Shown here one piece after another: positions 47,273 to 51,191 of a DNA stretch of 64,000 bases. The position numbers and the translations under genes were made by a program. The notes below the pieces were generated by a model, which ran no database searches, was not told the DNA's origin, and was given only the letters and a program-made list of their open reading frames with translations. This DNA is from Bifidobacterium primatium (lineage in GTDB: Bacteria; Actinomycetota; Actinomycetes; Actinomycetales; Bifidobacteriaceae). How positions within the stretch are numbered: position 1 is the first letter of the stretch; every line of letters starts with the position of its first letter. Location of the stretch: positions 273,830-337,829 of the forward strand of contig NZ_PEBI01000001.1 of assembly GCF_002802875.1 (NCBI RefSeq), written 5' to 3'.

Positions 47273-47380
47273 CAAGCCTCCTGAAACCCTCGTAATATAA
47301 CGTTTTAACTATATAGGAGGGCTCAGAGTGCGCACCCTCCCCCTTGCCTCCCTGCGGGCGGGGTGCGTTATCATGACGGC

Positions 47381-47929
47381 ATGGCTTCAACGCAGAGCAG
47401 ACGCAACGATCCGGAACGCAGGCAGCGCATCATCGACGCATGCCTCGACGTCATCGCCGAGCGTGGCGTGGCGGGAACGTCGCACCGGGTCGTGGCCGCG
47501 AGGGCCGGCGTTCCCCTCGGCTCGATGACCTACTATTTCGACGGCATGGACGACCTGCTGCATCAGGCGTTCGGCCAGTTCGTGCAACGGTCCATCGACG
47601 TCTTCGCCGCCCGCATGGCCGACGTTTCGAGCACCGAGGCGGCCTGCGAGGCCGTCGCCCGGCATATCGAGGGCGATCTGCTGATCACGCCGCACGACTT
47701 CACCATCAATCTGGAGTTCTATACGATCGCCGCCCGCGACGGCTCCTTCCGCGATTTGAGCGAACGGTGGATGGCGGCGAGCCGCGCCGAGCTGGAACGG
47801 TTCTTTGATGCCGAGACCGCACAATTGCTCGACGCGCTCGTCGAGGGTCTGACCCTGCACCGCGCGTTCGGCGTGGCATCCTCCCCCGCCGCCATCCGCA
47901 CGGCCATCCACCGAATCACGGGCCGGTAG
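47381..47929 (+). CDS. TetR-family regulator (first)
   Basis: A 182-aa protein. The helix-turn-helix region is at residues ~10-55 (RIIDACLDVIAERGV, HRVVAARAGVPLGSMTYYF), and the rest is a helical ligand domain. It diverges from the M60 peptidase gene with 108 bp between starts, so it may control that gene. An AT-rich segment with partial symmetry (47290-47312) lies between them. It is convergent with the ABC ATPase gene, which is an alternative target. Confidence 0.87.
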   Translation: MASTQSRRNDPERRQRIIDACLDVIAERGVAGTSHRVVAARAGVPLGSMTYYFDGMDDLLHQAFGQFVQRSIDVFAARMADVSSTEAACEAVARHIEGDLLITPHDFTINLEFYTIAARDGSFRDLSERWMAASRAELERFFDAETAQLLDALVEGLTLHRAFGVASSPAAIRTAIHRITGR

Positions 47930-47930
47930 T

Positions 47931-48014
47931 CCCGGAATCCGGAATCTATGGTGCCTTTCGGTCGTTTTTCGCCGTGAAAACGACCATTTGGCACCATGGA
48001 TTCCGGATTCCGGG
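47931..48014. repeat. R3 hairpin element, copy 1 (bidirectional terminator-like)
   Basis: Outer arms CCCGGAATCCGGAATC / GATTCCGGATTCCGGG enclose the shared R3 core (ATGGTGCC, CGGTCGTTTT and complements). A GTTTTT follows. It sits exactly between two convergent stops. Confidence 0.85.
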
Positions 48015-48018
48015 GTTT

Positions 48019-48720
48019 TTACCACTCGATGTCGGCGATGGGCGTCGGATGCTCGTTAACGCAAATCTCCGTGACCTTGCCGGAGCGGAAGCGAATCAAT
48101 CGGTCGCCCATCGGCGCGAGCGCGGAATTGTGCGTGACCAGCGCAACGGTGATGCCGTTGTTGCGGCAGGAATCCTGCAACAGCTGGAGAATCTGCTTGC
48201 CAGTGTTGTAGTCGAGGGCGCCGGTCGGCTCGTCGCACAGCAGCAGCTTCGGGTTCTTGGCGAGCGCGCGGGCGATGGAGACGCGCTGCTGTTCGCCGCC
48301 GGAAAGCTGTGCGGGGAAGTTGCCCAGGCGCTCGCCGAGACCGACCTTTTCGAGCGTTTCGCGGGCGTCGAGCGCGTCGGGGCAGATCTGGCTGGCGAGT
48401 TCCACGTTTTCGAGGGCGGTGAGGTTGGGCACGAGGTTGTAGAACTGGAAGACGAATCCGACGTCGAACCGGCGGTAGTCGGTGAGTTCGGATTCGCTGG
48501 CGGCGGTCAGGGCGCGGCCGTCGAGGACGACGCTGCCGGAGGTGGCGCGGTCCATGCCGCCGAGGATGTTCAGCGCCGTGGATTTTCCGGCGCCGGACGC
48601 GCCGAGGATGACGGCGAGCTCGCCCTTTTCGATGTCGAACGTCGCGTGGTCGAGGGCCTTGACGGCGGACTCCCCCTCGCCGTATTGGCGGACCACGTCA
48701 TGGAATTCCAGGAATGCCAT
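48019..48720 (-). CDS. ABC ATPase, MacB/LolD type, without adjacent FtsX-fold permease
   Basis: A 233-aa protein with Walker [10 protein letters not shown], signature LSGGEQQR and Walker [12 protein letters not shown]. The GALD form is common in ATPases that pair with FtsX-fold permeases of peptide-resistance type systems, but none follows it here; the next gene is a convergent TetR gene. The nearest membrane partner is the YhgE-like permease upstream. AAAGGAG precedes the start. A 25-bp palindrome lies at 48803-48827, in its promoter region. Confidence 0.88.
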
Positions 48721-48802
48721 TGTCTGCTCCTTTCGTTGCCGGCGTCCGTGTTGCGGAAGCGGACGTCGTGGATTGCGGATTGCGTCGGGTGCTGGCCATA
48801 AG

Positions 48803-48827
48803 TTTATTCAACAACTTGTAGAATAAA
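48803..48827. promoter_or_regulatory. 25-bp TetR-type palindrome, site A
   Basis: Arms TTTATTC and GAATAAA with a symmetric centre ACAACTTGT. It lies 82 bp upstream of the ABC ATPase start. It matches site B (50375-50399) in arms, length and surroundings. Confidence 0.7.
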
Positions 48828-48894
48828 AATGACAACATCGTCCGTTATGTAGAGTTTTTCACGTCACGCGACGCAACAGGCCGGCACAAAACCA

Positions 48895-48974
48895 CGAAAC
48901 CCGCAATTCACGATGCCTTTCGGTTGTTTTTCGACATAAAAACGACCCTTTGGCACCTCAGATTGCGGGTTTCG
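48895..48974. repeat. R3 hairpin element, copy 2
   Basis: Outer arms CGAAACCCGCAAT / ATTGCGGGTTTCG with the R3 core (TGCCTTTCGGTTGTTTTT ... AAAACGACCCTTTGGCACC). It is downstream of the permease gene and upstream of the ABC ATPase, inside direct repeat A. Confidence 0.85.
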
Positions 48975-49019
48975 GGAGTTTTGGACCGTATGCGGGGACG
49001 GATTCAGCCAGCCCTGCGG

Positions 49020-50327
49020 CTACTCGGCAACGGAGTCGGTCGCGGCCACCTTATGACGCCCCACGGGCATCATTCCCGCACAGACGAAGACCAGCAGTCC
49101 GACGCACAGGACGGCAAGCAACGGCATGGAGCCCGCATTCCACCAGCCGTCGCCGCGATACATCACGGCACGTACGCCATCGCCGATGAAATGCTGCGGA
49201 ACCCAACCGTAGATCCAGTCACGCCAGAACGCCGGCAGCAATTCGGCCGGGAACAGACCGCTGGTCATGCCGAGGCCGAGACCAAGCACGCCGCAGCCGA
49301 GGCCAAGCGGCACGGCGATGTTCATGAGGCCGAGGAACACCGTCATGAGCGCGAAACTGGCGAGCCAGAGGAACATCACCATGGAGGCGGACAACCATCC
49401 GGACCCAAGCATGGCGAAGATGCAATCGGCCCCCAGGGCCACACCCAGGGACCAGACGAGCGCAAGACCAAGCTGCGTCCCGAACGAGCCCCAACGTTGG
49501 GCACGGCTGTCATACGACTTGCGTCGGAGCTGATTGGCCACAAGCAACGAGACGATCAACGACATCATATAGACGGGCATGATGAGTACATTCTGCCCCA
49601 TCATCGTGGCGGTGGGCAGGGAGCTGTTGGTCGTCACACCGCCTTCGTTGAGCACGGTGGTCTTCACCGTGGCGCCGGTCTTCTCCAGCATGACCGGCAG
49701 GCTCTGCCTGAGCAGGTTGGCAAGCATCGGACTCTTGGCATTGTCGACGACCAGCTTGATTTCCGGCGCAGCTGTCGCCGGAGTCGTGGCGGTCTGCTGC
49801 GTGGAGACGGCCTTCTGCACCGCCTCCTGCGCGGCCTTCTGCACGAACCGCTGCGCGGCCGCTCCAGTGAACCCCTGCTGTTGCGCGGCGATCTGCGCCT
49901 TGGCCTGAGCCTGCGCCATGACCTGCGCCAGCTTGGTCGCGGATTCGATCTGCGTCTTGGCCGCAGCCTGCTTGGCATCCATCTGCTTGGCGGTGAAGTC
50001 CTTGGGGATAACGACGGCCGCATAGTAATCACGGTTGTCGAAGCCGTCGTCGACCTGCCGCTGCGAGTCGACCTCATGCCATGCGATTGCCGGCTCACCG
50101 TCGGAATCCGATGCCGCCTCCGTGACTTTGTCGACCAGCGTATCGCCGATGTTCACGGTCTTGCCCTGGACGGTCGCACCTTCGTCGAGCGAGAGAATCG
50201 CCACCGGCACGTTCTTCATGCTGGCGTTCATCATGGGATAGAACAGCAGCGCCATGAAGCATGACGCCACCGCTATCACCACCAGCGGCAGCGCGAACTT
50301 CGCATATCGTTTCGTATTTCCATGCAT
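49020..50327 (-). CDS. YhgE/Pip-like ABC-2 type permease
   Basis: A 435-aa protein. An N-terminal helix (~12-33) is followed by an extracytoplasmic region to ~240 that contains an Ala/Gln/Lys-rich coiled segment (~110-180). About five or six helices (~245-430) follow. This is the YhgE/Pip plan. AAGGAAG precedes the start. It lies upstream of the ABC ATPase on the same strand but with 299 bp between them, including an operator-like palindrome. It could work with that ATPase as an efflux system or act alone. The gene is bracketed by ~190-bp direct repeats. Confidence 0.8.
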   Translation of the reverse strand: MHGNTKRYAKFALPLVVIAVASCFMALLFYPMMNASMKNVPVAILSLDEGATVQGKTVNIGDTLVDKVTEAASDSDGEPAIAWHEVDSQRQVDDGFDNRDYYAAVVIPKDFTAKQMDAKQAAAKTQIESATKLAQVMAQAQAKAQIAAQQQGFTGAAAQRFVQKAAQEAVQKAVSTQQTATTPATAAPEIKLVVDNAKSPMLANLLRQSLPVMLEKTGATVKTTVLNEGGVTTNSSLPTATMMGQNVLIMPVYMMSLIVSLLVANQLRRKSYDSRAQRWGSFGTQLGLALVWSLGVALGADCIFAMLGSGWLSASMVMFLWLASFALMTVFLGLMNIAVPLGLGCGVLGLGLGMTSGLFPAELLPAFWRDWIYGWVPQHFIGDGVRAVMYRGDGWWNAGSMPLLAVLCVGLLVFVCAGMMPVGRHKVAATDSVAE

Positions 50328-50374
50328 GGTTCTCTTCCTTCCTTGGCATCGTTCATGTTCATGCGTACAATGAT

Positions 50375-50399
50375 TTTATTCATCACGGTGTCGAATAAA
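50375..50399. promoter_or_regulatory. 25-bp TetR-type palindrome, site B
   Basis: Arms TTTATTC and GAATAAA with centre CACGGTG. It lies 47 bp upstream of the permease start and 186 bp upstream of the divergent TetR gene, so one protein could control both. Confidence 0.7.
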
Positions 50400-50464
50400 A
50401 ATCACCAATATTCGACAAGATGTATAGTTTTTATACGGAGAACCACGCAACAGGCCGGCACAAA

Positions 50465-50549
50465 CCCCGAAATCGGCGATCTGTGGTGCCTTTCGGTCGT
50501 TTTCACGCCGGAAAACGACCTTTTGGCACCATAGATTGCGGATTCCGGG
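50465..50549. repeat. R3 hairpin element, copy 3
   Basis: Outer arms CCCGAAATCGGC / GCGGATTCCGGG, with the core TGGTGCC-TTT-CGGTCGTTTTC and complement. Unlike copies 1 and 2 it stands in front of a gene, 37 bp before the TetR start, so here it would be in the leader or promoter. Confidence 0.85.
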
Positions 50550-50585
50550 AGTTTCGGACTGTATTTCACACGAAAGGACCACGAT

Positions 50586-51191
50586 ATGCCACGACCACGG
50601 GCGGCGGAACGGCCGGCGACGAAGAAGATGCAGGAGGCGTTCTGGCGGCTGCTGGAACAAAAGCCATACCCCAAGATCACGGTCAGCGACATCACGCGCA
50701 CGAGCGGCCTGAACCGCACGGCGTTCTACTACCACTACACCAACATCGCCGAGCTGGCGGAGGACGCCATCGCCGCCATCTACGAGGACCAGGGCCTCAA
50801 CGTCTTCATCACGCGGCTGATCCGCCAGCCCGACGACATCGACCTGCATCAGGAGTACGTCCGGTTCATCGACAACGACGAATACCGACGCAGCGTGCAC
50901 AAGGTATCGCTCATCACCGGACCGCACGGTTCGACCAGCCTGACGCGGCAGCTGCGCGATTTCGTCGCGGACATCTGGCTCGGCCTGCTCGGACTCGACC
51001 GGCGGCGGCTGAATCCGGGGCAGAATCTCATTCTCAACTTCGCCTCGAACGGCATTCTCGGCGTATTGGCCAACGCGGACGCGTTGTTCAACGATGACGG
51101 CGCGCAATGGATAGCGCGCACGCGACTGCCGGAGACCGTCTCGCACCTCATCAACTCGCTGAAGGACCTCGACGACGACACGGACGCATGA
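50586..51191 (+). CDS. TetR-family regulator (second)
   Basis: A 201-aa protein. The helix-turn-helix is at ~12-55 (KKMQEAFWRLLEQKPYPKIT, ITRTSGLNRTAFYYHY), followed by a helical domain. AAAGGA precedes the ATG. It diverges from the permease gene, and the TetR-type palindrome at 50375-50399 lies between them. The identical arms at 48803-48827 suggest that it regulates the permease, the ABC ATPase and itself. Confidence 0.88.
   Translation: MPRPRAAERPATKKMQEAFWRLLEQKPYPKITVSDITRTSGLNRTAFYYHYTNIAELAEDAIAAIYEDQGLNVFITRLIRQPDDIDLHQEYVRFIDNDEYRRSVHKVSLITGPHGSTSLTRQLRDFVADIWLGLLGLDRRRLNPGQNLILNFASNGILGVLANADALFNDDGAQWIARTRLPETVSHLINSLKDLDDDTDA

Follow-up and report, generated by a model that had tools for sequence, protein, structure and literature searches.

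In the genome of Bifidobacterium primatium, a single permease gene stands between two similar stretches of DNA in direct orientation. Such an arrangement raises the question of whether these arms form a working device that excises or amplifies the gene, or whether they record the evolutionary history of the locus. The window analyzed here, the whole stretch of 64,000 nucleotides (positions 273830-337829 of contig C1 of genome G000), carries four genes at this place: TetR1, a TetR-family regulator (47363-47929, plus strand; Pfam TetR_N, 3.3e-9), a LolD/MacB-type ABC ATPase (48019-48720, minus strand; ABC_tran, 1.4e-33; LolD as best NCBIfam model, under its cut-off), a YhgE/Pip-like ABC-2-type permease (49020-50327, minus strand) and TetR2, a divergent TetR-family regulator (50586-51191, plus strand; TetR_N, 4.8e-7). 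The permease matches the Pfam model ABC2_membrane_3 above its cut-off (2.9e-16), while it remains under the NCBIfam cut-offs of TIGR03061 (5.5e-17; 61.9 against 96.15 bits) and TIGR03062 (23.8 against 102.2 bits). In its domain matches and its divergent TetR neighbor it resembles the YhgE/Pip permeases. However, it differs from this family in its sub-threshold NCBIfam scores and, going by the putative operators, in being co-regulated with a MacB/LolD-type ATPase. Among named species, B. tissieri, B. vansinderenii and B. callimiconis are nearest to the window genome, and literature searches yielded no paper that deals with the permease or the repeat in bifidobacteria. The locus was compared between the window genome and eight relatives of the genus, with one genome per species, and permease copies were surveyed in 151 genomes.

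The first-pass annotation had described the segments 48803-48991 and 50375-50564 as collinear direct repeats with exactly one gene between them, and this description is accurate. Over 48798-48995 and 50370-50566 the arms are collinear, with an identity of about 74% and no exact match longer than about 20 bases, and their global alignment scores 107 while 100 shuffles gave -115 or less. The permease is the sole gene that they enclose. Identity varies along the arms, from 29/40 in the palindrome and 27/41 in the following 41 bases to 17/18 in the core, 73/93 in the hairpin and 21/29 in the tail. Each arm is a composite of an operator part and a dispersed element comprising core, hairpin and tail, and the appearance of one long direct repeat arises from components that are each present twice and in the same order. 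The idea of a single repeat unit is thus given up, since the operators are an ancestral feature that does not depend on the element. The 20-base core ACGCAACAGGCCGGCACAAA (48871-48890 and 50445-50464, both plus strand) is perfect between the arms and overlaps the outer end of the element in each of them. With up to three mismatches allowed, it occurs exactly twice in the genome, once per arm, against 0 occurrences in the control. As a separate motif it was nevertheless rejected, since other copies of the element have similar sequences at their outer ends, such as TTTTGTGCCGG beside L007 and TTTGCGCCCGTATTGTTGCG beside L009, and it was treated as the end of the element. Both arms have exactly the same end, although the remainder of the two elements is down to about 80% identity; such a difference would be accounted for by local gene conversion or by constraint.

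The operator part of each arm contains a TetR-type palindrome, located at the promoter of the ABC gene (48803-48827) and in the divergent region between permease and TetR2 (50375-50399), respectively. A pattern search for TTTATTC...GAATAAA returned these two sites only in the whole genome. A second, weaker operator can be read 32 bp from the first one in the divergent region (50408-50430), and the ATGTA-AGTTTTT shared by the arms is part of it. The permease promoters of four relatives (L037, L036, L040 and L043) have a second site at exactly the same spacing. By analogy with such tandem sites, ATGTAGAGTTTTT (48835-48859) at the ABC promoter may be a degenerate second operator half. Matching operators stand upstream of both permease and ABC gene in G001, G002 and G008, where neither of the two gaps contains an element, and G004, G005 and G006 have an operator in front of the ABC gene. 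Because both genes are preceded by operators in relatives without elements in these gaps, the operator half of the arms is old, and it is explained by regulation and not by duplication of the permease. The same operator is thus found at both promoters and kept in relatives, as in a two-operator TetR regulon, and TetR2 is most likely the regulator that binds at the conserved operators of both permease and ABC ATPase gene.

The remaining part of each arm, from core to tail, is a dispersed palindromic element of about 122 bp. The left-arm copy (48874-48995; model R1, 98.3 bits; fold z -6.2) lies just past the stop of the permease gene, and the right-arm copy (50447-50568; 113.6 bits; fold z -9.3) in the presumed leader of TetR2. 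A third copy (47912-48033, core hairpin 47931-48014; 115.2 bits), which has inverted-repeat arms of its own, is located between the stops of TetR1 and the ABC gene, so that the permease locus holds three copies within 2.6 kb. Its hairpin (47927-48029), about 1 kb away, had been overlooked in the first-pass annotation, as had the dispersal of the hairpin over the whole genome. It is 84-87% identical to the right-arm hairpin, while the left- and right-arm hairpins share 77%; over the whole element the arm copies are about 81% alike, which does not exceed the similarity of either to other copies. A covariance model gave 48 strand-matches in the window genome, corresponding to about 24 places, since most places match on both strands and counts were therefore halved. 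The same model gave 68 strand-matches in G004, 6 in G002 and 0 in G003. Seven of the eight genus relatives contain between 3 and 34 places and G003 none, and the element is a characteristic feature of this group of bifidobacteria. Of the listed places in the window genome, at least 12 fall in a segment of about 210 kb on one contig (G000:C1:166598-375335), a region that includes the window. The palindrome is kept by paired changes: 35 cells show changes on both sides, a value reached in 2 of 500 shuffles, and slid structures score lower.

In these respects the element is similar to REP/BIME, REPIN-type and MITE-like palindromes (PMC3116915, PMC8266576), which are likewise short, non-coding, imperfect palindromes in tens of dispersed copies, intergenic where examined, and diverged in sequence with the structure retained. 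In contrast to typical REPs it is longer, with its about 122 bp and long stem, and it would count as a REP/MITE-like repeat by its many dispersed copies and its conserved palindrome. A search of Rfam delivered chance microRNA matches only, far below the gathering scores, and a REP survey from 2025 does not mention bifidobacteria.

If recombination had occurred between the arms, a locus without the permease should result in which ABC and TetR gene share one control region. The first-pass annotation had predicted this product, and it does occur in relatives. In G004, G005 and G006 the ABC gene is present, with a protein 97-99% identical to that of the window, and the permease is absent at this place. 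The cleanest case is G004, where one hybrid arm stands between ABC gene and TetR2. It consists of an operator and left flank of the type of the window's ABC arm, an element, and a right flank of the TetR2-side type; of the informative bases, nearly all left of the element are of ABC-arm type and most of those to the right are of TetR2-leader type. This one-arm locus is the product expected from recombination between two elements. The junctions of G005 and G006 are less clean: in G005 the ribosome-binding region of TetR2 comes immediately after the operator, without an element, and in G006 a flavodoxin gene follows the operator, with TetR2 gone as well. G006 also has a more distant TetR-permease pair elsewhere in its genome. 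In G005 (L098, 8173-9458) the DNA of TetR2 is only 80% identical to that of the window, while the ABC gene and a large surface-protein (BIGADH) gene reach 95-97%. This segment appears to have been replaced by recombination, and the loss of the permease in G005 may be that very replacement. In B. tissieri the locus is split: a distance of about 2.6 kb separates the permease from TetR2 downstream of it (L036 5001-9516, L101), and the ABC-FtsX pair is located on the same contig at a distance of about 23 kb.

This FtsX gene leads to another difference between the window and its relatives. In all seven relatives examined, a gene for an FtsX-type permease of about 900 residues (PF02687, 1e-26) directly follows the ABC gene. 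An FtsX permease is the expected partner of a MacB/LolD-type ATPase. The window ATPase is of this type, yet its genome lacks the partner gene, with a best paralogue of 47% identity. The ATPase may thus be an apparent orphan or serve another membrane partner. The third element occupies the position at which relatives carry the FtsX gene, and from this position it was probably involved in the loss. In G004 and G006 an element lies between ABC and FtsX gene. In G004, TetR1 is followed by the sequence CCCCGGAATCCG, which is similar to the end of the element, and a short match at such a site could have served for the deletion of FtsX.

Could the arms still work as a switch in the window strain? A loop-out or amplification unit that alters the permease copy number would agree with the direct orientation, the single enclosed gene and the existence of relatives without it. 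However, homologous recombination needs a certain length of exact match, and the present arms, at about 74% identity and with exact matches of about 20 bases at most, have diverged too far to recombine often and differ from the long, near-identical direct repeats of excisable or amplifying units. None of the 151 genomes has two permease copies, which also removes the support for the proposed amplification, and the known differences are between species that differ by many other changes as well. We consider such a device highly improbable. Another explanation regards the elements only as terminator-like or transcript-stabilizing hairpins between genes, to which the gene losses are unrelated. The elements do fold strongly, and they are found just past gene ends: after the permease stop in the window and in B. 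tissieri, after FtsX in B. tissieri, and after the ABC gene in G004 and G006. Nevertheless, no long T-run follows them, the number of sites in a terminator scan did not exceed that in shuffles, one copy is located in a gene leader, and the flanks of G004 change arm type across the element. A mere hairpin function is unlikely.

A further question is the direction of change. The order TetR2-operator-permease-operator-ABC-FtsX is found in G001, G002 and G008. The rpoB tree, ((G000,G005),(G002,G004)) with G006 and the tissieri group outside, makes the permease order common to G000, G002, G001 and G008 ancestral, and the absences losses. Loss is also favored because a TetR2 homologue adjoins the permease in most permease loci, including those of another genus-level group; a TetR2 without its usual neighbor looks like a remnant. 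The ABC sequences, however, contradict the rpoB tree, which joins G002 with G004: G004, G005 and G006 share 93-95% DNA identity with G000, while G002, G001 and G008 share 85-86%, and G002 falls outside the group of four. Under this grouping a gain costs fewer steps, since the permease is present at this locus in just one of the four genomes, G000. The one-arm ABC-TetR2 locus would then be ancestral in these four, and the window lineage would have acquired the permease with its operator when recombination took place through the element. As the ABC gene places G002 differently and TetR2 of G005 is too divergent for its neighborhood, the region is mosaic and the polarity uncertain. Still, G000 and G002 group together in the permease tree, a result compatible with that of rpoB, and outgroup species have the same gene order and operator layout. 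The TetR2-permease-ABC order of these outgroups speaks against the suggestion that the permease was acquired through the arms, and a gain appears doubtful.

Taken together, the repeats are probably traces of an earlier gene loss and not a working device for on/off or copy-number control, and the locus is best read as a TetR regulon with two operators, whose scattered palindromes acted as deletion endpoints during evolution. A TetR2-controlled membrane-transport locus, with TetR2 divergent from the permease and operators in front of permease and ABC gene, would have received copies of the element in its intergenic gaps. In the course of evolution, genes enclosed by elements would then have been removed by recombination between these elements or by replication slippage. 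In G004 this would have been the permease, with one hybrid element left behind; in the window lineage it was probably the FtsX permease, with the third element left behind. The present arms of the window would be a fixed, diverged arrangement and not a switch. We regard this explanation, taken as a whole, as reasonably probable. Of the first interpretation, it keeps the predicted deletion product, which exists between species, while the single repeat unit, the acquisition through the arms, the amplification and the working switch find no support. One might further speculate that long palindromic elements are recurrent deletion endpoints in these bifidobacteria, and that transporter genes flanked by adjacent elements are lost repeatedly and independently, the permease in one lineage and the FtsX partner in another, re-wiring which transporter components are under a shared TetR control, although this broader idea is tentative. 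The locus shows how dispersed palindromes beside operators can mimic a designed loop-out cassette, and it is an example of a predicted deletion product that occurs in a related species. If the link between elements and losses holds, the locus would be a small and testable case in which to study how repeats are associated with gene loss and how transporter regulation is re-wired in gut bifidobacteria.
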